Assembly (NCBI GenBank): GCA_003569365.1
Contig: BGOS01000023.1
Location: forward strand, 1-64,000
Direction: 5' to 3'
Source: Anaerolineaceae bacterium
Lineage (GTDB): Bacteria > Chloroflexota > Anaerolineae > Anaerolineales > UBA11657
DNA length: 64,000 bases
The notes beneath the pieces were generated by a model. The model searched no databases. It had not been told where the DNA came from and saw only the letters and a program-made list of their open reading frames with translations. Numbering within the stretch: the first letter of the stretch is position 1; every line of letters begins with the position of its first letter. Both the position numbers and the translations under genes were made by a program. Below are positions 6,688-18,708 of the stretch, in pieces.

Positions 6688-8362
6688 TTACGTGCCTGCG
6701 TTTTGATACCAGTGCTCGTAGTTGATTAGCTGCCAAAAAAGTTGCGCATGGGATTTTTGCCCATTTACATGTTCGGTTAGCCGGTGCCTCATTGCCGATA
6801 TGTTATAGATACCGCGTTGTTGCACCTTCCTGTCAGCCAGTATTTCCTCCACCATTGCTTTCATTTCTCGCCGCAACCATTTGTCCGTCGGTGCATTCCA
6901 GCCGTGCTTGTAGAAATTATTTCGCGCTTTATCAGGCAGGAATCCTTTAGTGGCTGCGCGAATAGTGGGTTTTGTGGTCCCATTTTTGTAACGCATGGTC
7001 AATGGGGTTGAAAACCCGTGAAAATTACATTCTGATCCAGAAATGGGTAAAGCGTAGCCACCCCAGTTGTTCTTGTGTTATGCATTTCGGCCCGTAGCAC
7101 GGGAGGAATTGTTTCAAAGAACAGATCCTGGTAAAGTTTGTTTACCAAATAGCTGGTAAAAGGATTTGTTAATTGGGGACGGGGAATCTGTGAGCGGATA
7201 ATATTTTGTGACAATACATCGAAATTGCTATCATAACGGTGTTGGTTAAGTAAAACGCGCCCGGGAAAATTAAAATCTATTTCATTAGCAAAAAAATTTT
7301 CCAAAACACTAGGAGTTTTCGGGTACTCTGGTGTTTCATGATATTTTGTCCACCCCACCATGTCTTTAACTAACCGATCCTCCATTCCTTGGCTCCGTAA
7401 ATCAGCGAAATAGTACAGATATTCTTCGATTTCGCCGCAAGTCGCCTCGTCTCCGCCTAGTCCGCTAAACAAGGCGTCGTGCCCTAGGTCGGCGACTCTT
7501 TGAGCAACAATTCGGTGCACCATTTGTGTCACAGTTGGGCAGGGCTCATCACTACCGATGGCAAAACGATCAATCATGCTTAAAACGTCGCCTACTGAAA
7601 TCTTTATTTGTAACCATTCACCGCCAATCGCCTTTGCTGTGTGTGAAATTTCAGCTGATTCATCGTAAGGTGTTGGTGCATCATATATGGTAGTTATCAG
7701 AGTTGGTGACCCAACTGTCCGGGCAGCAAGGCATGCTACCGTGGAAGAGTCCATTCCTGAGCTCAAGGTAAATGCTGGTCGTTTTACCAGGGCCAGTCGC
7801 TCAGCTACACTAAGTTTCAGCCTGTGCAGAAACTCTTTGCCGATCTCCTCCTCGCTCTGCCCGGACAGGTCGGCGAGTTCCAAGTCAGTGAAGCTACCTG
7901 TTATGATGGATCCAGATGTAATCTTTAAGTATTCACCTGGCATCAAGCAGAATACTCCAATGAAAAAAGTAGAGTTTTTAGGAAATGTGAAATACCGGTA
8001 GTGGCTGGCGACAAAATACAATTTTTTATAGGGTCGGGCCGGAGGCGAAATCCGCTTTGTTTAAGCCCAGAAATGGATGAGGACACATGTAGGTGGCCTG
8101 CATCCTTTGCGTAGTATATGGAGTGAATTCCGAAACGATCCCGAATAGCAACTGTGAGTAAAGTGGAAGGGTTGTGAACGAGGACAGCGGCGTCTCCTCC
8201 GGGATCGGCCACAGTTCCGTCCGCAAGATAATCTAGCAGGGTCTGTTTTTGTTTCCACCAACCATCCACTAGGAAAAGCAGCGCGGTGGTATCGAGCTTG
8301 GCGCTGGATTTCATCAGGCGTCCCGTGGCAGTCTGCAGGACAACCCAAAATGGGTTAATCAT
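6688..8362 (-). CDS. AsnB-like amide synthetase lacking the glutaminase cysteine (frame breaks)
   Basis: This protein belongs to the asparagine synthetase B / beta-lactam synthetase superfamily. It activates a carboxylate with ATP and joins it to an amine. It reads from ATG 8362, which overlaps the stop of the 8718 gene in an ATGA. Breaks occur near 8025 and 7000. The N-terminal domain is recognisable (RDRFGIHSIYYA) but starts MINPFWVV, so the Cys2 nucleophile of glutamine-hydrolysing enzymes is absent. The synthetase domain has the PP-loop SSGMDSSTVACLA, then ALFSGLGGDEATCGEIEEY and a C-terminal TLYPFLDQNVI. Enzymes with this pattern use free ammonia or another amine, as in beta-lactam synthetase and lasso-peptide cyclases. 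In a glycan island, amidation of a sugar acid is a reasonable guess. Confidence 0.7.
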
Positions 8363-8718
8363 TTGGCTTCCGGTACCCATGTATCAAGCCATGTCAAAAC
8401 TCGGGCGCGAACCTCGGATAGATAACCAAGAAATTCATCAATTTTCGCTTCTTCTACAATATTTATATACAGCGTCGGCGTTTCTGTGAAGTCACTGAGG
8501 ACGAGCGCGGTCCGAAATCCCCGTTTCCGTAGGGTATGGTTGAGTGAGTTGGAGAGGTAAAACCCCCAACTCTTGCGAGTGATGTCATTCCCGGCACCAC
8601 TGTTCGTCGTGATAGTGATCTGTTCGTCACATTCAAGAAAGAGCTCTCCCATGTCCATAAGGTTCATGCCCTTAAGCGGGCTAAAAGTGCGCCCGTCACT
8701 GTTAAAGTTGGTTTTCAT
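8359..8718 (-). CDS. W-G-F-Y small protein 1, coupled to AsnB-like enzyme
   Basis: This is a 119-residue soluble protein with no signal peptide or membrane segment. I do not recognise a named family. It is clearly paralogous to the product at 9832-10217: across a 52-residue core I count 24 identical positions by eye, including EQIT, RK(S/T)WGFY, SLN and LV. The predicted content is mostly beta strands followed by a helical C-terminus (IDEFLGYLSEVRARVLTWLDTW). The start at 8718 has a strong AGGAGGT site and a TATAAT about 30 bp upstream, so it begins its own transcript. Its stop overlaps the AsnB-like gene, which suggests the two proteins act together. The function is unknown. Confidence 0.8.
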   Translation of the reverse strand: MKTNFNSDGRTFSPLKGMNLMDMGELFLECDEQITITTNSGAGNDITRKSWGFYLSNSLNHTLRKRGFRTALVLSDFTETPTLYINIVEEAKIDEFLGYLSEVRARVLTWLDTWVPEAK

Positions 8719-8726
8719 TACCGTTC

Positions 8727-8751
8727 AACCTCCTAATGGATTTCCATTATA
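8727..8751 (-). promoter_or_regulatory. -10 box and strong ribosome site for the 8718 transcript
   Basis: On the minus strand TATAAT lies at 8751-8746 and AGGAGGT at about 8733-8727, followed by nine bases and the ATG at 8718. The predicted transcript start, near 8739, gives a leader of about 20 nt. No convincing -35 box is visible. This separates the 8718-8362 pair from the longer upstream operon, which ends at 8996. Confidence 0.6.
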
Positions 8752-8995
8752 GCGTGTGTTGATAGTGCCTTAGCCCACTCGACTTCTCTTTTATACTATT
8801 TTTTGGCGGTGGCAAATCGACCAATCACCGCAAGAATGTTTTACCGACACGCCTGACCGCCCCTTAGTAGGCTGATTTTCACTTGGAGAAATTTACCGAG
8901 CTGATTGCAAGTTTGAGAGATAGATGCTCAAAGCGATCGTTTTTGCTAAATCGCCGGCTGGATATGCGCGTGCCCCGCGTTGCGGTAAATCGCCT

Positions 8996-9829
8996 CTAAG
9001 TTTCAGTGGCGAAGGCACGAATTGTGCACTTGGTGCTAGGTTCCTGCAGTCTTTCTATTGTGACCGCGCAGAATTCAGCTCGGGCAGCGAGCAGGCTTGT
9101 TGATGCAAAACTAAACGCATGTAGATGGTCAATAAAGAATTCTTCCCGGCCGGAACCCATGGCCTCAGCTTTTTCGCCATCTGGCAATTCCATATACACC
9201 ATGCCACCACGATTAAGAAAAGGTTTGGCGCACCGCAGCATCGTAATTGGGCGTGCGACATGCTCCAGAACTTTGTTAAATGTAATAACATCGAAATGTT
9301 GCGGCGGCGTTAGTTCAAAAAAATCACTGCATATTGCACTTACATTTGGCAGTGACCCCAGACGGGCAGCTGATTTAGGGTCCGGGTCTACAGCCGTAAC
9401 AGCGAAGCCGCGCTGCGCCATCACAAAGGGAAAGACCCCTAATCCCGATCCAACATCAAGTATAGAGACCGAGGCCGGGTCAAAGGGTCCAAGGTGTTCC
9501 AGCAAATGGCGTTCAATGCGGTTGCAGCGGCCAGTGTTGTCGGATTTATCTGGAGCAAGCTTGATAATCCTTTCGAAGGATTGTTGCATCCCGAGGCTAC
9601 TTTGATATGTGGAGTTGTTGTAAGCACCACTGTAAAGAGCTTCAGTATCTAATTGGTGGGTGGGGTAGTAATGGCCACAGGTTTCGCAACTCCAAATCGT
9701 GCGCTGGTACTCGTTGGGTGCAAAAACGCCCAAATCGATTTCGCCAGGCGGCGGTCCGGAATACTTAAATACGGTGCGAAAGCGGGTGCCGCTGCAAAAC
9801 ATGCAGTGGTCGATATTTGCTCGTAACAT
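8996..9829 (-). CDS. Class I SAM methyltransferase with N-terminal zinc-binding Cys motif
   Basis: This 277-residue SAM-dependent methyltransferase is probably a sugar C- or N-methyltransferase. The N-terminus has two cysteine pairs (CMFC near residue 9 and CETCGHYY near residue 48), as in the zinc-binding domain of NDP-sugar C-methyltransferases. The Rossmann part follows: SILDVGSGLGVFPFVMA (motif I), AVTAVDPD (motif II) and FDVITFNKVLEHV (motif IV). I place the start at ATG 9829, not at an earlier in-frame codon, because the upstream gene in its corrected frame ends at 9832, two bases before. It is the last gene before a 277-bp gap, so it probably ends the long island transcript. The substrate is not determinable from sequence. 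Confidence 0.82.
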   Translation of the reverse strand: MLRANIDHCMFCSGTRFRTVFKYSGPPPGEIDLGVFAPNEYQRTIWSCETCGHYYPTHQLDTEALYSGAYNNSTYQSSLGMQQSFERIIKLAPDKSDNTGRCNRIERHLLEHLGPFDPASVSILDVGSGLGVFPFVMAQRGFAVTAVDPDPKSAARLGSLPNVSAICSDFFELTPPQHFDVITFNKVLEHVARPITMLRCAKPFLNRGGMVYMELPDGEKAEAMGSGREEFFIDHLHAFSFASTSLLAARAEFCAVTIERLQEPSTKCTIRAFATET

Positions 9830-9831
9830 GT

Positions 9832-10217
9832 CTAGTCTGGAGCCACGCGTTGCCCCAATGCCCTCAGGCCAACTGCATTGTCCATCCAACACACAATGCT
9901 AAGGTGTTCACTATCCGCATATTTCTGAAACTCTGGTTCCTTTCCTTTTTCAACTAATAAGAGGAAAAAGAAGTCGGCCCTGTTTTGACAAGTACTGCCC
10001 GCAGGTTAAATTTCTCAAGACGACCGTTGAGGGAAGGGGTTGCATAAAACCCCCATGTTTTTCGCACCACATCATATTCATGGCCACCTGCGGTCGCGAA
10101 CGTAATCTGTTCATTTGGTTCCAAGTGAATTGAGCCGCAGTCTTTGAGCGTGATTTTTTGATTAATACCCACTTCAAACTCGCGCGGTGGGTGGCGTGGC
10201 TTTATATTCACGTCCAA
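9832..10217 (-). CDS. W-G-F-Y small protein 2 (one frame break), coupled to sugar amidotransferase
   Basis: This is a paralogue of the 8359-8718 product, sharing GSIHLEPNEQIT-type and RKTWGFYATPSLN-type segments. The uncorrected frame stops early at 9954. Shifting one frame near 9985 gives DFFFLLLVEKGKEPEFQKY and a C-terminus ending at TAG 9834-9832. This matches the paralogue (LYINIVEEAKIDEFL) and abuts the next gene by two bases. I therefore call one gene of about 128 residues with a single-base error or mutation. It overlaps the end of the upstream N-acetyl sugar amidotransferase by 10 nt, so translation is probably coupled. The family is unnamed to me. It is cytosolic, with no catalytic signature I can identify. 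Confidence 0.72.
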
Positions 10218-11328
10218 TTCCAGTCTGGAATTATAAAGTTGCGCATGCGCCAGACCCCGCCATGCTTTCTCCAGATTACTTGATTGCGGTGCACCTCAGC
10301 AATCTGGTGGAAGCGCTGTTCGCTAATTCCAGTAAATGCACAAAACCTGCTTATATCTTCGTGCGGGCGCTCCTCGCCATTTTTTCTAATTATTTCTAAT
10401 GCCAGACTGCGGGTGGTGCGTCCGGCGCGAATTTCAAGCGATAAATTGTCAAAGCTTCTGGTCATGCCAAATTTGTACCACTTCATCCAGTGGTGAATCG
10501 AGATAAAGTCATCATCAATATCGGCGTATTCGTAGACTCCCGTACGCGGGGTAGCACTCGACATGAACCCGTGCGCCTGGGCAACCTGCAAACTTGTGGC
10601 CACATCCCAGGCAAAATAATGACCAAGAAAATTGCACTGACATTCGCGTGGTCTAGCTCTGCATCGGTGGGGCCAAAGTAGGAGCTCAGGTCTTTCTCGG
10701 ACAAGTCTGCGTCGATCCAATCACGCGCGGTGGTTCCGTGTGTAACGCCATAGTGGCGCAGCCAGTTTGCATCAAGGCAATGGCCGGCTAATGAGTCGTC
10801 CCCACCTGACCCGTACTCAAATGCGGAATTTTCTCCCCACACAACCAGCGGGATTTTTAATCTGACCGCAATTGAAAGGGGAATATTAAACATTGCCATG
10901 TGCATCGGTATCGCAGTTGCACCGTAGCGCTCAAAAGCTTTGACAAGAAACCTTTTCTCCACTTCCGGATTTACCTGCCAGTCAACATGATCTACTCCCA
11001 ACTGCACCAGATTTGTCCAGATTACGCTGGCCAATGGCGGTGCGCGCCGGGGTCTTCCACGTGACTGCCAGCGGCCTTAGCCCGGATTGTAAGCACTTCA
11101 CTACCTGCCACGTGCTGTCTTTGCCACCGCTTACTGGAATAACGCAGTCAAACGGTTGGAGCGGAGCATTGCGTTTTCGATCACTCGCTGGAATGCCTGT
11201 GCGCGCGCGCCCCAATCAATCTCAATCATTTTGCGCCGCGAATTGTTGCAGGCGTTGCAAATTCCATCACCACCAAGGACGATGCCGGGCCGCGTATTCG
11301 GCTGGATACAAGCCCGGCACCATTTCAT
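10208..11328 (-). CDS. N-acetyl sugar amidotransferase, WbpG/PtmG type (three frame breaks)
   Basis: This is a PP-loop ATP pyrophosphatase-type enzyme that turns a sugar N-acetyl group into an acetamidino group using ammonia. It begins WCRACIQPNTRP with CNACNN (paired cysteines, probably zinc-binding), then VIPVSGGKDSTWQVVKCLQ (PP-loop), PLVVWGENSAFEYGSG, IFLGHYFAWDV and ends IPDWNWT. The breaks are near 11165, 11025 and 10645; each corrected segment continues the family without internal stops. The known relatives WbpG, PseA and PtmG work on O-antigen sugars, pseudaminate or legionaminate. WbpG works with HisH/HisF-like partners, and no such genes are visible here. The ATG overlaps the asnB stop (ATGA), and the 3' end overlaps W-G-F-Y protein 2. 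Confidence 0.8.
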
Positions 11329-13169
11329 GCGTACTGCTCCAGAAACACCCCCGCATTTATGACGCTGAAGAGGTACTTGCTGTAGTGATTTGGCAGGTGG
11401 TCTTGATCTAGCAGTGCCGCTACGTGGTTGCGCGGGGCACCAGTTCGAATACCGGGTTCGCAGGATCCAGAATTTGCTCGCGGACGCAGCCCTGCTTTAA
11501 GTCTATTAAAGTGGAGATAGATGCGTTGAAGCCTTTCTTGTGCGGTCAAGGCGTACTTGCTCGTTGAGCACGCCCTTAAGGGACTCGCGCAGAGATATTT
11601 GCCATAGGCCGTTTTGTATTAAGTATTCTGCGGGTACAGAATACATAAAGTCAATCAAGCGCGAATCCAAATATGGGCTGCGATTTTCCACTGAAAAGCA
11701 CATTGAATTGAGGTCGTCCTCATGGAGTATTACTGGAATGTTTTCATGAAGCAGTTCATTCAGCATGCGGTTGCGCAGCATGGAATCACAGTAGACGGTT
11801 TCAGAGTATGCACTATCAAATGCGGTATCGCCTTCAATCGTCAGCCAGCGGCAAAATTCAGCATAATTATCAAAATATGTTCACGATAATTCGGCTGGTT
11901 TGTGTAAAGCAGCGGATCCCGCAGAGTTGGATTGCGCACCAAAGGGGCGATGTGCTGCTGCCAGTCTTGCATAGATCGAGAATAGTGTGCATGGCTGTGC
12001 ATTGCGTTGAGATACAGTAGAAAATGATCGTAATAGCCAGTATAAAGTTCGTCAGCAGCAGTGCCAGATAGAGCTACCCGGTAACCGGACCCCGAATTTT
12101 CTCTGATAGCAGGGAATGAATATAGTACGTGGTCGTAGCAATCGGGCTGTCGTGGTAGGCAATCAGTGCTTTTAGGCGCTGCATGCCGCCATGTTTTGTA
12201 TGTCTACAAGTGTATGTTGGCACCCAAGGTCACGAATAGTGGCCATAATATTTGAGGTCTCGTTGTACCTTTCGTCAGAATCAAGAATCGAAAGGTGGCC
12301 ACGTTGCATCCAAATTGTTTCGCAGCTATAGAGACCAATGCAGCTGAGTCCACACCCCCACTGAGGCAGAAAGCCAACGGTACATCCGAGCGCAGCCGAA
12401 TTCGCACACTTTCAAACAAATGCTGCCGGGAGCCTTCGACTGCTTCTGCCAGCGTCATTGAGGTTTGGCGGACAGTGGGCTGCCAATAGCGCTTTTCAGT
12501 CGGCTTGAGGTCAGGGTCCAGTTGGAGGGTTGTACCGGCGGCCAGCTCTTGAACCTCAACGAAAAAAGTTGCCGGCTGTTTGTAAAGTGACTTGTAACCG
12601 AGTGTAAGGTATCTAAGAATTTGATTACGATTTATTTTAAAGGTTTGATTGGATAGTGCTGTGAGAAACTTAATCTCAGACCCGAAGTAGAGGCCCGCGG
12701 CAGACTTGTAGTAGTAAAGCGGTTTTTCCCCAAACCGGTCGCGGGACAGCATCAGTTGCCGGGTTCGGCCATCCCAAAGAGCAAAGCTCCACATGCCTTC
12801 AAAGTGCTTGACGCAGTCTGCGCCGTAGTGCAGGTAAGCTTGCAGCAGGACCTCTGTGTCAGATGTGGTGTGAAATGCAACGCCGTTCCGGGCGAGGTCC
12901 GCCCGCAGCTCAAGGTAGTTATAAATCTCGCCATTGAAAATCAGGCTGCACTCACCAATCTGAAATGGCTGGTTGGCCCGATCATCAAGGTCAATGATAC
13001 GAAGCCGCGAGTGCAGGAAGAGTACCCGCAGCGAATCCGACGAGTTGCCACCGCATACGTAGCGATGGATCTGACCATCCGGGCCGCGTTGCTTCATGCG
13101 CTCCAGCGCAGCCCGGACATTGGTGTCGGGAAGCGGGCAGTGCCCAATAAAGCCGGCGATGCCGCACAT
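11325..13169 (-). CDS. asnB: Glutamine-hydrolysing asparagine synthetase (several frame breaks)
   Basis: This is an asparagine synthetase with a class II glutaminase domain. It starts MCGIAGFIG, so the Cys2 nucleophile is present, then LIFNGEIYNYLELR and LSRDRFGEKPLYYY. The synthetase domain has the PP-loop FCLSGGVDSAALVS. Around 12290 the frame breaks; further breaks are near 12170, 12085, 11880, 11560 and 11440. The corrected frames give ILDSDERYNETSNIM, QRLKALIAYHDSPIATTTYY, ALSGTAADELYTGYYDH, HEDDLNSMCFSVENRSPYLD and DQDHLPNHYSKYLFSV, the usual family order up to the end. Inside a sugar island such AsnB copies are often thought to amidate a sugar acid rather than make asparagine. The single-base shifts without other damage suggest error. 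Confidence 0.82.
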
Positions 13170-13879: not shown

Positions 13880-14570
13880 TAAGGTAGTAGAGTTCCGTAA
13901 TTATGTTTGCTCCGTTTAAGACCATCATTTGTCCAGAGCTGGTGGTTAGTGTAAAGCTGCGGATCGGGTCGTCAGCCTCAGAAATAGATATTGGCAGGTG
14001 AAATCGAATGAATTCATGGCTATAGCCCTTAGCGGTCAGAAAGTTTCCGACTGTTGTGATTGAGTAAGAGGTGAGGCCACCTTCCCATGCTCCGCCTACA
14101 TAGTGGTTTCTGAAGCGGTTGATCGTATCTATATTTCTGCTGTTGAAACAGCCAAACAAATAAAGAGTACCATTGCTTTCAAGCCATGATAGCCACTTAG
14201 AGAGGGGTTCCTCAAAGTCTTCGAAGATGCTCAGAACACCGGACGCGATAATTACATCATACTTATTCTGTGGAGTATAAGCGAGTGCATCCTGCACATA
14301 AAAACTGCAGTTGGGGTCGGCCTCAAACTTTTTTTTAGCAAGCTCAATTAGTTCTGCAGAAATGTCGATGCCTGTGAATTTGGCCGCGGCAAACCGGGGC
14401 CGGATTAACTGAATGAAAGCGCCACTCGCGCATCCAATGTCGAGCAAACAGCGCAACTCAGGTGCGCGCTGGATCAACAGTTCCAGTAATCGTAGTTCGT
14501 GATGCTTTGGCTCGCGTGCCTGCCGATAGGCGGCTAATTGGGTGTTAGGTAGCGATGTTGTCATGCTCAA
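13851..14570 (-). CDS. Class I SAM methyltransferase
   Basis: This intact 239-residue SAM-dependent methyltransferase has LRCLLDIGCASGAFIQLI (motif I, about residue 40), FTGIDISAELIELAKKKF (motif II) and YDVIIASGVLSIFEDF (motif IV). No zinc motif, membrane segment or signal peptide is seen. It overlaps the neuB-like gene upstream by 26 nt and the next methyltransferase downstream by up to 29 nt, so the three are translated from one message. Three methyltransferases in one sugar island suggest a multiply methylated residue. PtmH, which methylates an acetamidino group on legionaminate in Campylobacter, is one precedent. Which of the three would do that cannot be told. Confidence 0.85.
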   Translation of the reverse strand: MSMTTSLPNTQLAAYRQAREPKHHELRLLELLIQRAPELRCLLDIGCASGAFIQLIRPRFAAAKFTGIDISAELIELAKKKFEADPNCSFYVQDALAYTPQNKYDVIIASGVLSIFEDFEEPLSKWLSWLESNGTLYLFGCFNSRNIDTINRFRNHYVGGAWEGGLTSYSITTVGNFLTAKGYSHEFIRFHLPISISEADDPIRSFTLTTSSGQMMVLNGANIITELYYLIVHDTKAND

Positions 14571-15633
14571 GTCTTTCAGTTACGTCATCATTCTTTTCAG
14601 GTAGGTACAAATCTTTATGGACAATCATTTCACCCTGAGCGAGGCTGCGCGTGATGGTCCGCCCAAGCACTGCACTTTCTTCGCCCGGTGGAATTCCGGT
14701 GCCCGGCCGGACCCACGTAATATGAGCAGCGGTAAGCATTGTTCCGGCCGCTAAATCCTGCGCCGCCGCAATCGAGCGCCGCACCGGGGCTCGATTGCCC
14801 TCCTCGCATGCCTGCGGCGTGATTTCGCCTGACCCTTGCAAGGCCTCGACGCGCCTGATGCTGGATACGAGCAGGCGAAAATCTTGCGGGTCGGCGGATA
14901 ACTGGTGGTCGCGAAACTCAGAATGGTTCTTGTCGAGCGTGAAGTGTTTTTCGATAATGCGGGCCCCGGCTGCTACAGCAAAGGTGGCAGCTTCGATACC
15001 GAGTGTGTGGTCAGAGTAGCCAATTATGGCCCCGGGGAAATGCGCCTTCAGCTTTTGAATTGCACCAAGGTTGGCTTGATCAGGCGGGGCCGGATAGCTG
15101 CACACGCAATGTAAAAAGGCAAAACCGGGGTTTACTCCGTTCTTGTTCCAAATGGCACTGGTAGCTGAGTAGATCCGCTGCAAGAGATCAAGGTCAGCCA
15201 GCCCGGTGGACACAAACATCGGTTTTGAGAATGCGGCTACACATTGGATCAATTGCAAAAAGTTATTGTCGCCTGAAGCAATCTTAAAGACATCTTGAAT
15301 GCTGTTTAGGAAGTGGGCGCTTTGGATGTCAAAGGGGGTGGAGAAGAATCTCACTCCACAGGACAGTGCGGTGCGGGCTAATGCTTCAAACTGCGCGTAT
15401 GAAAATTGAAATCCGCGCAGCCGTGCCAGTCTGTCACTATCTGCGCCGTGCACGAGATGCTCCGGGACAATTGTCTGAAACTTTACCGCATCCGCACCTG
15501 CCTTGGCGGCGCTGGCAATCATTCTTTGGGCTGTTTCAAAGCTGCCTTCGTGATTGTTCCCAATTTCCGCGACAATCAAAACTCTATTCGACAGATTGAA
15601 TGGTTCAGGCATAACTCTTTGTGTCACAATCAT
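14545..15633 (-). CDS. neuB: NeuB-type nonulosonate synthase with C-terminal SAF domain
   Basis: This 362-residue protein is of the sialic/legionaminic/pseudaminic acid synthase family, which condenses phosphoenolpyruvate with a six-carbon N-acyl hexosamine in the cytosol. Family blocks run in order: LIVAEIGNNHEGSFETAQRM, ADAVKFQT, FKIASGDNNFLQLIQ, STGLADLD, FLHCVCSYP, IIGYSDHTLG and IIEKHFTLDKNHSEFRDHQL. A SAF (antifreeze-like) domain follows from about residue 285 (RSIAAAQDLAAGTMLTAAHI to GMIVHKDLYLP-like end). Both domains are complete. The start overlaps the formyltransferase stop by 4 nt. Whether it makes sialic, legionaminic or pseudaminic acid or a relative cannot be decided. The neighbours point to an unusual derivative, because no SpsG/PseG/NeuC hydrolase is in this window. 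Confidence 0.92.
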   Translation of the reverse strand: MIVTQRVMPEPFNLSNRVLIVAEIGNNHEGSFETAQRMIASAAKAGADAVKFQTIVPEHLVHGADSDRLARLRGFQFSYAQFEALARTALSCGVRFFSTPFDIQSAHFLNSIQDVFKIASGDNNFLQLIQCVAAFSKPMFVSTGLADLDLLQRIYSATSAIWNKNGVNPGFAFLHCVCSYPAPPDQANLGAIQKLKAHFPGAIIGYSDHTLGIEAATFAVAAGARIIEKHFTLDKNHSEFRDHQLSADPQDFRLLVSSIRRVEALQGSGEITPQACEEGNRAPVRRSIAAAQDLAAGTMLTAAHITWVRPGTGIPPGEESAVLGRTITRSLAQGEMIVHKDLYLPEKNDDVTERLEHDNIAT

Positions 15634-16517
15634 TCTAGATAATTTCCGTGAGTTAGCTTCAGGTGCGGTTGGCTTTCTATCTGGTAGTCGGTCACGAGAA
15701 TCGCTTTATCCGCGCAGATTATATAAGGGCCCTTATGCATGACATAGCAAATGCGGCCAGGCACGCCACGCAGGCACAAGGCGGGAATTTCTGCTGCATA
15801 AATGCGGACTTTGTGGCTGCCACTGTAAGCGAAGGCGCCCGGGTAGGGGCGGGTAATTGCACGCACCATGCGATCGACCGCTTGTGCAGGCATGCCCCCA
15901 AAATTTATGCGGCCGTCCGCATCTGTTCTTTGGTGCCAGTACCGGGCTTCAATTTCAGGCTGGGCTCGGCCGGATGAGTTATTCGAAACGAGACACTGCA
16001 GCGCCTTCACCGCAAGTTGGGGAAACAAACTATTGGCTTTGTGGTGTAAATGTGCAATTGTGTCACGAGGTCCAATTGGAAAACTTGACTCGGCCATGAT
16101 TGGTCCGCTATCAATACCCTCTTCAACTAGAATGACCGAAACCCCAGCGGAAGTTTCTCCATTGACAAGCTGCCAGTTGAGGGGGGAGCCACCCCTGTAA
16201 GCGGGCAGGCGCCCTGCATGAAGATTTAGTGTCGCCATTACCGGCACCTGCAGCAGCTGTGCCCGAAAAATACTGGAGAAACCCGCAATCAGAAAGACAT
16301 CTGGATGAAACGAGCGCAATAATCCTAATGAATCCTGTGCGTTTACGTCAGCAAGCTCCAAATGTGCAAAGTGGTTTGCGGCTTGCAAGGCGGCGAGGGC
16401 GCGATTGCTAAATGCGAGAGGCGTGACAACCCCGGGAACCTCAAACCTTGCATCCTCCAAAATGTGTGACAAAACAGATATGCCTCTCGCCCCATTTAAG
16501 AAGATTACTATCCTCAA
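15630..16517 (-). CDS. Formyltransferase-family enzyme, probably sugar N-formyltransferase
   Basis: This 295-residue protein has the methionyl-tRNA formyltransferase fold. The N-terminal catalytic domain contains LNLHAGRLPAYRGGSPLNW, with Asn and His of the N-x-H motif, and VEEGIDSGPIMAE with the catalytic Asp. Together these form the N/H/D triad that uses N10-formyl-tetrahydrofolate. The C-terminal half has an Fmt-like barrel (RINFGGMPAQAVDRMVRAITRPYPGAFAY). Because it lies in a sugar operon directly after an aminotransferase and an epimerase, I infer that it formylates an amino sugar, like WbtJ or ArnA-N. A translation-initiation role is less likely but not excluded. It overlaps neuB by 4 nt. 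The gap to the epimerase is 14 nt. Confidence 0.85.
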   Translation of the reverse strand: MRIVIFLNGARGISVLSHILEDARFEVPGVVTPLAFSNRALAALQAANHFAHLELADVNAQDSLGLLRSFHPDVFLIAGFSSIFRAQLLQVPVMATLNLHAGRLPAYRGGSPLNWQLVNGETSAGVSVILVEEGIDSGPIMAESSFPIGPRDTIAHLHHKANSLFPQLAVKALQCLVSNNSSGRAQPEIEARYWHQRTDADGRINFGGMPAQAVDRMVRAITRPYPGAFAYSGSHKVRIYAAEIPALCLRGVPGRICYVMHKGPYIICADKAILVTDYQIESQPHLKLTHGNYLE

Positions 16518-16531
16518 AATTCGATGCCAGC

Positions 16532-17566
16532 TTAGGTGGTAAATTCCGGATGGCTTTTAAACAATGACTTGTACCATTCAATGTATTTGGGATAGCCCCG
16601 ATCTAACGACCAGCCGGGATCATAGCCGATTAGCGTGCGCGCTTTGTCAATTGACAGCGTGCCGCGGTCCGGCATCAGCGCATCTTTCGCAATGTGCTTG
16701 ATAACTATGTCGGGAAAGTGCGCCCGCAAAATATCGACCATGTCCCCGATTGTGCGTGCCGACCCGTAAGTAATATTGAAGATTTCGTTGCGCGAATTCT
16801 TATTTTCAATCACCTTGGTAAGACCATCAATTAGATCTTGTATGTACGTGAAGTCCAGTCCATCAGAACCGTCACCGGTAACAGTTATGTCTTCGCCGAA
16901 CAGGGCATTTTCAATAAGTATCTGGCCCACCCGCCGGCTGACGCAGCGCTCACCATACAGCGCCGATGGCCGAATAATGGTGTAGGGCAGGCCAAACACC
17001 TGGTTGTAGGCAATAACGATCTTTTCGCCTGAGAACTTTAGTGCGCCGTAAATTCCCAGCGGTTCACACGGCGTCTTCTCGTCCACAGCACCATCCTTGA
17101 AGTTTCCGTACACCATGCTGGAAGATAGGTAAATGAAGTGCTCAATTGTGCCGCGTGCGTTATCCAGCGCGTTTTCCAAGGTACGCAAGCTGTGATCGAA
17201 CGTGGAAAACGGATCTTTATTGGAGCGGTTGGCGTGAGACACGGCGGCCAAATGAATAATCACCTGTGGTGCAGTCGTTGTGATGATTCGACTCAATGCG
17301 TGGTAATCTCGCGCGTCTTGCACATGAAGCGAAACGCCCGCTTCGCGCAGAAGGCGCAGTCGTTCCTCCAACACGGTCTGAGACAGTCTCGGGTGTGGCA
17401 GGTTGTCTGAGTTACCCAACACTGAGGTGAGGTTATTCACACCAAGGCCATCGATTATGGACACAGAAGCCCCAAGGCTCCGAAGGTGCAAAGCCAGATT
17501 GTGTCCAATAAATCCGGCGCCGCCAATGATGGTAATCCGCCGGTCTTTTACGGGCGTTAGGCTCAT
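16532..17566 (-). CDS. NAD-dependent sugar epimerase/dehydratase (extended SDR)
   Basis: This extended short-chain dehydrogenase of 344 residues acts on nucleotide sugars. The N-terminal Rossmann motif is ITIIGGAGFIGHNLALHL. The active-site region is IYLSSSMVYGNF with IYGALKFSGEKI (the YxxxK pair), then YTIIRPSALYGERC, VTGDGSDGLDFTYIQDLIDG and a substrate-binding C-terminal part. The absence of the dehydratase D-E pair next to the serine favours an epimerase or reductase over a 4,6-dehydratase, but this is a weak argument. It overlaps the aminotransferase by 4 nt (ATGA). With that enzyme it probably makes an amino-deoxy-hexose precursor for the NeuB-type synthase. Confidence 0.88.
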   Translation of the reverse strand: MSLTPVKDRRITIIGGAGFIGHNLALHLRSLGASVSIIDGLGVNNLTSVLGNSDNLPHPRLSQTVLEERLRLLREAGVSLHVQDARDYHALSRIITTTAPQVIIHLAAVSHANRSNKDPFSTFDHSLRTLENALDNARGTIEHFIYLSSSMVYGNFKDGAVDEKTPCEPLGIYGALKFSGEKIVIAYNQVFGLPYTIIRPSALYGERCVSRRVGQILIENALFGEDITVTGDGSDGLDFTYIQDLIDGLTKVIENKNSRNEIFNITYGSARTIGDMVDILRAHFPDIVIKHIAKDALMPDRGTLSIDKARTLIGYDPGWSLDRGYPKYIEWYKSLFKSHPEFTT

Positions 17567-18708
17567 AGAAGCAAACTCTTGATTATTTCCTTCAAGTTAT
17601 CGGCAATGGCATGCATGTCGGCAGTGCTTAGGTGCGGGCCAACCGGCAGGGCAATTGAGCGGTCGCTTAGCCTTGCGGCCACCGGATAACATGCTGGATT
17701 GTAACCGTACTTTTCGCGATAGTAGGTCATGCGCGGCACCGGCTGCGGATAGTAGATGCTTGAGCCAATGCCTTGTGCCGTCAGCGCCGCCATGATGCTT
17801 GGGCGTTTTTCTGCAATTGCTTCGCCAAGCAGCACCGCAAGGCAATAGTGGCAGCTTTGCAGGCGGGTGTTTGGGGCCGGCAGTACGCTGTATCCCGCAA
17901 AGTCCCCCAGAGCCTTTGAGAGGGCTGCATGGTTTTTGCTGCGCTGCTCCAAAAAGCCGGGCAGTCTCTTTACCTGTACCTTGCCTATGGCTGCATGGAT
18001 TTCACTCATGCGGTAGTTGAAGCCCAATGCTACGGTATCGTATATTCCCGGAACCTTGCGCTCGCTGTGGGTGCGATCTACGCCAAAAGCCTTTTTGAGC
18101 ATTAGCTGGGCAGCCAGCTTTGCGTCCCGCAGGATTACCATACCGCCCTCAGCAGTGGTAATATGCTTCACAGGATAGAAAGAGAACACCCCCGCGTCGC
18201 CATGCAAACCGGTGTGTACACCATCAACACTTGCGCCGGGCGACAATGCACAGTCCTCCAGCACAAACAGGTTGTGCCGCCGGGCAATAGTCATAACGAG
18301 CGGCATATCGACCGGCACACCCAAATAGTGCACGACGGCAATTGCTCGGGTACGGGGAGTGATCGCCGCCTCAATCTTTTTGATGTCAATATTGCCGGTG
18401 CCTGCCTCGGCATCGACAAACACGGGGCGGGCGCCGGTTAGTTCCACCGCATGGGCGGTGGCCACATGCGTCTGCGCGGGCACAATGACTTCATCTCCCG
18501 GGCCATAGCCGAGGCAAAAATAAACCAGATGCATGCCAGCCGTGCAGGACGAAACGCTAACAGCGTGCGGCGCACCGGTAAAAGCAGCAAATGCCTGTTC
18601 GAAGGCGGCCGCCACCGGCCCATGCACAAGCACAGGGCCTGCTAAAACATCGCTAACCGCAGCGCGCTCCTCTGCACCGATCATCGGTGCCCCAAATGGA
18701 ATCAGCAT
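17563..18708 (-). CDS. DegT/DnrJ/EryC1/StrS PLP-dependent sugar aminotransferase
   Basis: This 381-residue nucleotide-sugar aminotransferase uses PLP to convert a keto-sugar to an amino-sugar with glutamate as likely donor. Visible features are SVSSCTAGMHLVYFCLG (PLP phosphate contacts), VVHYLGVPVDMP, LFVLEDCALSPGA (the Asp that binds the pyridine nitrogen), and FSFYPVKHITTAEGG, where Lys (about residue 181) is the Schiff-base lysine. GFNYRMSEIHAAIGKVQV is the family's mobile-loop region. It is similar in type to LegC, PseC and SpsC. It starts 24 nt after the Gfo/Idh/MocA gene and overlaps the epimerase. The substrate is probably a UDP- or GDP-4-keto-6-deoxy sugar, but the sugar nucleotide cannot be read from sequence. 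Confidence 0.93.
   Translation of the reverse strand: MLIPFGAPMIGAEERAAVSDVLAGPVLVHGPVAAAFEQAFAAFTGAPHAVSVSSCTAGMHLVYFCLGYGPGDEVIVPAQTHVATAHAVELTGARPVFVDAEAGTGNIDIKKIEAAITPRTRAIAVVHYLGVPVDMPLVMTIARRHNLFVLEDCALSPGASVDGVHTGLHGDAGVFSFYPVKHITTAEGGMVILRDAKLAAQLMLKKAFGVDRTHSERKVPGIYDTVALGFNYRMSEIHAAIGKVQVKRLPGFLEQRSKNHAALSKALGDFAGYSVLPAPNTRLQSCHYCLAVLLGEAIAEKRPSIMAALTAQGIGSSIYYPQPVPRMTYYREKYGYNPACYPVAARLSDRSIALPVGPHLSTADMHAIADNLKEIIKSLLL

Follow-up and report, generated by a model that had tools for sequence, protein, structure and literature searches.

Introduction

Two small proteins with a shared WGFY motif, encoded in a surface-sugar gene cluster of an Anaerolineaceae bacterium (Chloroflexota), raise the question of what such a protein does beside enzymes that form C–N bonds. 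The cluster lies in the window analysed here, the 64,000 nucleotides at positions 1 to 64,000 of contig BGOS01000023.1 (assembly GCA_003569365.1), and it contains genes for a PP-loop N-acetyl sugar amidotransferase (NASAT, here WbuX) and for asparagine-synthase-like (AsnB) enzymes. We found that the WGFY family is associated with one class of WbuX, class A, which has AsnB directly before it and no adjacent HisH/HisF genes. WGFY is very probably a functional partner of this module. Our preferred reading, to which we give a probability of roughly 0.4, is that it is a small dedicated accessory subunit of an AsnB-fed, HisH/HisF-free WbuX amidation module acting on nonulosonate-type sugars.

When nonulosonic or other surface sugars carry amidine groups, their charge and immune recognition change. 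To our knowledge, the ammonia supply of the NASAT/WbuX enzymes is poorly understood. These enzymes use ATP and ammonia to form an amidine on N-acetyl sugars (PMC10607449). One known cluster has HisH and HisF2 alongside WbuX (PMC11340318), and HisH/HisF genes are present in an O-antigen cluster of Legionella (PMC3694923).

Results

WGFY genes accompany one class of WbuX

A four-sequence profile, blind to gene neighbours, was run against 84,980 species genomes. The 80 loci that it found belong to about 20 phyla, with a range from Pseudomonadota, Nitrospirota, Cyanobacteriota, Omnitrophota and Chloroflexota to methanogenic archaea. Most genomes carry a single copy. WbuX (TIGR03573) lies directly upstream of WGFY in 61 of the 80 loci, with a 4-nt stop/start overlap in 39. 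The usual gene order is DegT aminotransferase, SDR dehydratase, acetyltransferase (GNAT in the relatives' clusters), NeuB-type synthase, AsnB, WbuX, WGFY and S-adenosylmethionine (SAM)-dependent methyltransferase. The WbuX of one relative (G036) scores 342.7 bits against TIGR03573, for which the cut-off is 203.2, and the WGFY-linked WbuX proteins keep the tetracysteine (55/57) and SGGKDS (56/57) motifs.

The ordinary WbuX genes, examined in 400 Pseudomonadota genomes, adjoin HisH and HisF; the proteins beside this class, class B, match the HisH and WbuZ/AglZ-HisF2 acetamidino families. In a tree of 97 WbuX sequences, a clade of 65 rows with 100/100 support holds 56 of the 57 WGFY-adjacent WbuX and includes nine from WGFY loci that are not adjacent to WGFY. 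None of the 25 HisH/HisF-linked WbuX belongs to this clade, no WbuX in the tree has both kinds of neighbour, and HisH/HisF genes are beside 0 of the 57 WGFY-adjacent WbuX. HisH/HisF genes do occur in some WGFY loci. There they adjoin a second WbuX instead of the one linked to WGFY, and these loci serve as an internal control. A second WbuX was also seen inside long open reading frames (ORFs) that match HisF (L017, L018, L025, L027, L032, L039, L041, L066, L067, L071, L076 and L090). They look like fusions of HisF with WbuX, their loci also contain HisH, and they share the cluster with a WGFY-type WbuX.

Since the loci of the tree had been found via WGFY, a separate survey was directed by WbuX alone. 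It covered 91 genes of Pseudomonadota, Nitrospirota, Alphaproteobacteria and Cyanobacteriota, the Alphaproteobacterial loci being the best-scoring 29, and classes were assigned with hidden Markov models trained partly on loci that overlap the survey. WGFY was found within 1.5 kb of 13 of the 14 clear class-A genes, none of which had HisH/HisF beside it. For the class-B genes the counts were 0/75 for WGFY and 64/75 for HisH/HisF. Two Alphaproteobacterial genes (L205 and L211) scored nearly equally with both class models, had HisH/HisF present and were counted as unassigned. A genome-wide search found WGFY in 0 of the 23 genomes whose surveyed WbuX were all of class B. The literature and libraries searched gave no description of a HisH/HisF-free WbuX branch.

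Orphan WGFY genes, far from any sugar cluster, were observed in Alphaproteobacteria (L047 of Marivibrio, 8944-9375; L056, 8770-9357). Unlinked WGFY genes lie 0.5 Mb away or on another contig, and both of these genomes have class-A WbuX and AsnB elsewhere; in G787, a fragmented metagenome bin with WGFY, no WbuX was found. The sequence-only reading had linked the two window proteins to PP-loop sugar amidation. The neighbour-blind search bears this out in that WGFY occurs with N-acetyl sugar amidotransferase and AsnB genes in about 20 phyla, and homologues scattered without PP-loop partners were not the pattern, as genomes with stray WGFY genes keep class-A WbuX and AsnB. The association is strong, but it is confined to the HisH/HisF-free branch, and most WbuX are without WGFY.

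The family is well conserved and matches no known one

WGFY proteins are about 115-130 aa long. R10, E34, D47, W53, G54, Y56, S60 and L65 are invariant, and Q35, K51, N62, R64, Y99, W110 and D112 nearly so. Among 74 members scanned there was no match in Pfam (best E about 0.02, chance level) or NCBIfam (best E 0.0016, in one member only), and none in the PDB sequences; the match to a well-characterised unrelated family, which would have spoken against the earlier idea, did not appear. The AlphaFold2 model is compact (pLDDT 95), in which a beta part at the N-terminus precedes a beta-beta-alpha-beta-alpha part; it consists mostly of beta strands with three short helices. Fold searches gave only a weak, unreliable best hit with Foldseek (E 0.93) and, with VIA, a phycobilisome linker (Z 5.1 over 47 residues of the C-terminal part), too weak to be meaningful.

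No relatives were found in the phage and viral collections. The plasmid search gave one record, p5 of Azospirillum brasilense. The second copy there was rejected as a paralogue, being an assembly duplicate with frameshifts. The end of this plasmid of strain MTCC4039 repeats its start, with frameshifts (L006/L014; NZ_CP032350.1, 7-17 kb and 183-194 kb), which looks like an unresolved circular overlap that creates false gene copies. Our literature searches found no description of a WGFY protein. The WGFY subunit and its arrangement are new, and the accompanying enzymes are of known kinds.

The SAM methyltransferase is closely tied to WGFY

Clean fusions of WGFY with the methyltransferase were found in three loci (L057, L071 and L087), and a fourth (L081) has a fusion with a decayed methyltransferase part. 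Long WGFY ORFs of 218-337 aa (L022, L026 and L062) were rejected as fusions, since their start codons lie inside the upstream gene in another frame. The neighbouring methyltransferases have Methyltransf_23-type domains only. The pairing with PP-loop enzymes that had been read from the window sequence holds, but the methyltransferase is as closely tied to WGFY, as the three clean fusions indicate.

Two AsnB types and a second WGFY subtype

The AsnB abutting WbuX, here AsnB-A, retains Cys2 at its N-terminus in 51 of 52 cases and has SGGVDS. The second type, AsnB-B, starts with MSRIAG, lacks this Cys, keeps SGGMDS and usually lies further downstream; its match to the lasso cyclase model is below the cut-off. 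This Cys-less enzyme is recurrent (L028:11838-13709, L034:11863-13719 and others, besides the window copy) and is expected to make an amide without a glutaminase.

Protein 1 of the window represents a second WGFY subtype, with the motif WGFYL.NS.N and the ending WLDxW. Its relatives from Rhizobium sp. Q54 (L085:9388-9741, 50% identity) and from the Nitrospirota genome G927 (L177:13697-14056) are directly upstream of a Cys-less AsnB-like gene, so that this subtype stands beside such a gene in three lineages, the window included. In G927 a further related subtype (L177:11421) overlaps a Cys-bearing AsnB. The arrangements in L085 and G927 show that the pattern of one WGFY protein per PP-loop enzyme, described in the sequence-only reading, recurs in distant lineages.

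The paralogues and the sugar cluster of the window

The two window proteins have 37% identity over 95 aa (E 6e-14) and 46% over a 56-aa core, which is consistent with the 24 of 52 identical positions counted earlier by hand; judged by this alignment they are true paralogues, and their likeness is not due to chance. The stop of protein 1 overlaps the AsnB-B start as ATGA at 8359-8362, as had been noted. Protein 2, which shares 55% identity with WP_137143684.1 of Azospirillum, had been placed at 9832-10217; the gene exists, but that span has 386 nt, not a multiple of three, and is frameshifted. Its frame is open from 10211 to about 9960, where a stop occurs, and the sequence from there to the TAG at 9832-9834 continues in a different frame; there is hence a single frameshift, close to the TTTTTCC run at about 9965. 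A GTG start (10209-10211) that overlaps the WbuX stop TGA (10208-10210) as GTGA is more likely than the TTG start with a 10-nt overlap proposed before. Both PP-loop partners named for the proteins are present, but both are frameshifted (Table 1).

Table 1. Genes of the sugar cluster in the window
Feature	Position	Strand	Remarks
AsnB-B, AsnB-like PP-loop enzyme without catalytic Cys2	6688..8362	-	MINPFWVV, SSGMDS; frameshifted; type as in other clusters
WGFY protein 1 (119 aa)	8359..8718	-	Intact; subtype RTFSPLKG...WGFYLSNSLN...WLDTW; Shine-Dalgarno-like AGGAGG 5' of gene
SAM-dependent methyltransferase	8996..9829	-	Start abuts or overlaps end of protein 2
WGFY protein 2 (~126 aa)	9832..10211	-	Canonical subtype (WGFYATPSLNGRL); one frameshift
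WbuX, N-acetyl sugar amidotransferase (WbpG/PtmG type), class A	10208..11328	-	Split by frameshifts; TIGR03573 and class models
AsnB-A, glutamine-dependent asparagine-synthase-like amidotransferase	11325..13169	-	Cys2 (MCGIAG); frameshifted
NeuB/PseI/LegI-family nonulosonate synthase	14545..15633	-	
Formyltransferase-like gene	15630..16517	-	By eye; position held by GNAT acetyltransferase in other clusters
SDR dehydratase	16532..17566	-	
DegT/PseC-like aminotransferase	17563..18708	-	

The TIGR03573 match of the window WbuX covers the C-terminal part, and its pieces score below the cut-off, this copy being frameshifted; the class A model outscores the class B model on every fragment. The G036 counterpart of the NeuB-type synthase matches TIGR03569 and TIGR03586, both below cut-off. 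Frameshifts break AsnB-A, WbuX and AsnB-B. By eye, a proB-like ORF at the window's left end (683-2050, ~0.7-2.05 kb) also has an apparent compensating pair of frameshifts, and for this reason those of the cluster are probably indel errors of the assembly and not decay of the cluster. Elsewhere in the same genome (G000:C15:3736-4122), a long open frame contains a stretch with weak similarity to WbuX in its N-terminal part.

Discussion

Several independent comparative-genomic tests show the association of WGFY with the amidation genes; that WGFY is a subunit, and of which enzyme, we infer. AsnB-A probably replaces HisH/HisF. It would hydrolyse glutamine and hand the ammonia to WbuX, which would convert the N-acetyl group to an amidine (acetamidino) group. 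WGFY would dock AsnB-A and WbuX together and pass the product to the following methyltransferase, which by analogy with PtmH/Legionella ORF8 may N-methylate it; the N-methylation of acetimidoyl legionaminic acid is reported in PMC3766260. Protein 1 would be a paralogue moved to the Cys-less AsnB-B, and for AsnB-B the partner of the activated carboxylate would be an amine other than ammonia from glutamine. A role of WGFY as a non-catalytic adaptor is suggested here tentatively. The evidence appears to us evenly balanced on the wider picture of a second, HisH/HisF-free type of sugar-amidation machinery in bacteria and archaea, with a glutaminase-bearing AsnB, a distinct WbuX branch, a nearly obligate WGFY protein that couples amidine formation to methylation, and a paralogue of this subunit that serves a Cys-less AsnB ligase.

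Several observations weigh against WGFY as an accessory subunit of this kind. The genome G933 has NeuB, AsnB-A and class-A WbuX in a cluster without WGFY, and therefore WGFY is not always needed. AsnB-B, lacking the Cys, has no need of an ammonia relay, and a role shared by both paralogues is therefore not obvious. In the model of the L057 fusion (pTM 0.75) the domains are confident and their relative position is unsure. The distance correlations of WGFY are 0.37 with the methyltransferase, 0.23 with WbuX and -0.06 with AsnB on its own, although such mirror-tree signals are only mild because all genes of the cluster travel together. Judged from the alignment, the invariant R10, E34, D47, W53, Y56 and S60 and the near-invariant K51, N62 and R64 could point to a catalytic or ligand-binding protein instead of a scaffold.

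These residues lead to the idea of an enzymatic WGFY protein. It could catalyse a step of amidated-nonulosonate synthesis between those of WbuX and the methyltransferase, for instance as an isomerase, a hydrolase or a cyclase. Most of the invariant polar residues (R, E, D, K, W, Y, S and N) are kept in both subtypes, the compact model is confident, and the gene can be far from the cluster and yet be kept in the genome. We regard this as somewhat unlikely, as no enzyme matches by fold or sequence, the gene stays close to WbuX and the methyltransferase and shows the overlaps and fusions that are usual for subunits of a complex, and two paralogues stand beside two different AsnB types. The fusions and the highest correlation would also suit a protein that is a partner of the methyltransferase, presenting the substrate for N-methylation of the amidine and linked to WbuX/AsnB only indirectly; the reported activity of the PtmH-type enzyme of Legionella/Campylobacter fits here as well. 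However, the overlap with WbuX is equally conserved (61 loci), clusters of the L082-L089 type keep the methyltransferase with WbuX while WGFY is elsewhere, and protein 1 adjoins AsnB-B with no methyltransferase directly beside it, which makes this explanation unlikely.

The sequence-only reading had also thought of a substrate carrier. A small protein of this kind would hold the sugar, or an acyl/aminoacyl group, during the reactions of AsnB and WbuX. The small size and the position among C-N ligases would agree with it, as would the invariant Ser of a PSLN motif, which lies just ahead of a short helix and distantly recalls the DSL of acyl carrier protein (ACP). On the other hand, the model is mostly beta with three short helices and not a four-helix ACP bundle, it has no carrier motif, there is no conserved C-terminal residue (LysW-type Glu) or Cys for attachment, and no carrier-protein or ACP family matches; because of the beta-rich model above all, a carrier role is improbable. 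Finally, the presence of the cluster in scattered lineages, as if horizontally mobile, and the class-A cluster that lacks WGFY would allow a gene that is carried along with the cluster, as a passenger or a regulator, and has no part in amidation. The strict link to the WbuX class across four surveyed groups, the 4-nt overlaps, the fusions and the retention when unlinked make this very improbable.

The accessory subunit reading can be compared with known systems. The WbuX-WbuY(HisH)-WbuZ(HisF/AglZ) module (TIGR03573, TIGR01855, TIGR03572/NF038364) has the same PP-loop amidotransferase, with the tetracysteine and SGGKDS, and occurs in surface-sugar clusters of the same kind; in contrast, the WGFY-linked WbuX forms a separate clade and has AsnB and WGFY in place of the adjacent HisH/HisF. 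The amidination of legionaminic acid in Legionella/Campylobacter (LpNASAT 8WEX; PtmG, PtmH/ORF8) shares the NeuB-type synthase, the NASAT (class-A WbuX matches 8WEX with E 4e-42) and the methyltransferase. The accessible parts of PMC3766260 and PMC10607449 report an N-methyl acetimidoyl product and describe no WGFY protein. AsnB-A resembles the AsnB-like amide synthetases of surface polysaccharides in its Cys2 and SGGVDS, and AsnB-B resembles Cys-less homologues of the lasso cyclase and beta-lactam synthetase type in lacking Cys2, but both belong here to sugar clusters that also have WbuX and WGFY. For the Pse O-glycan cluster of Tannerella forsythia, earlier work proposed that an AsnB makes the acetamidino group of a nonulosonate (PMC6120980); the accessible text mentions no WGFY protein, and the genome itself was not searched for one.

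An alternative to HisH/HisF that consists of WGFY and AsnB would give an unnamed family of about 20 phyla a concrete and testable role. The class split distinguishes WbuX enzymes of two kinds that current annotation treats alike, and the arrangement predicts which clusters may make (methylated) amidino sugars. Since fusions and orthologous sets occur in cultivable bacteria such as Azospirillum, Methylocystis and Leptolyngbya, this role is readily testable.

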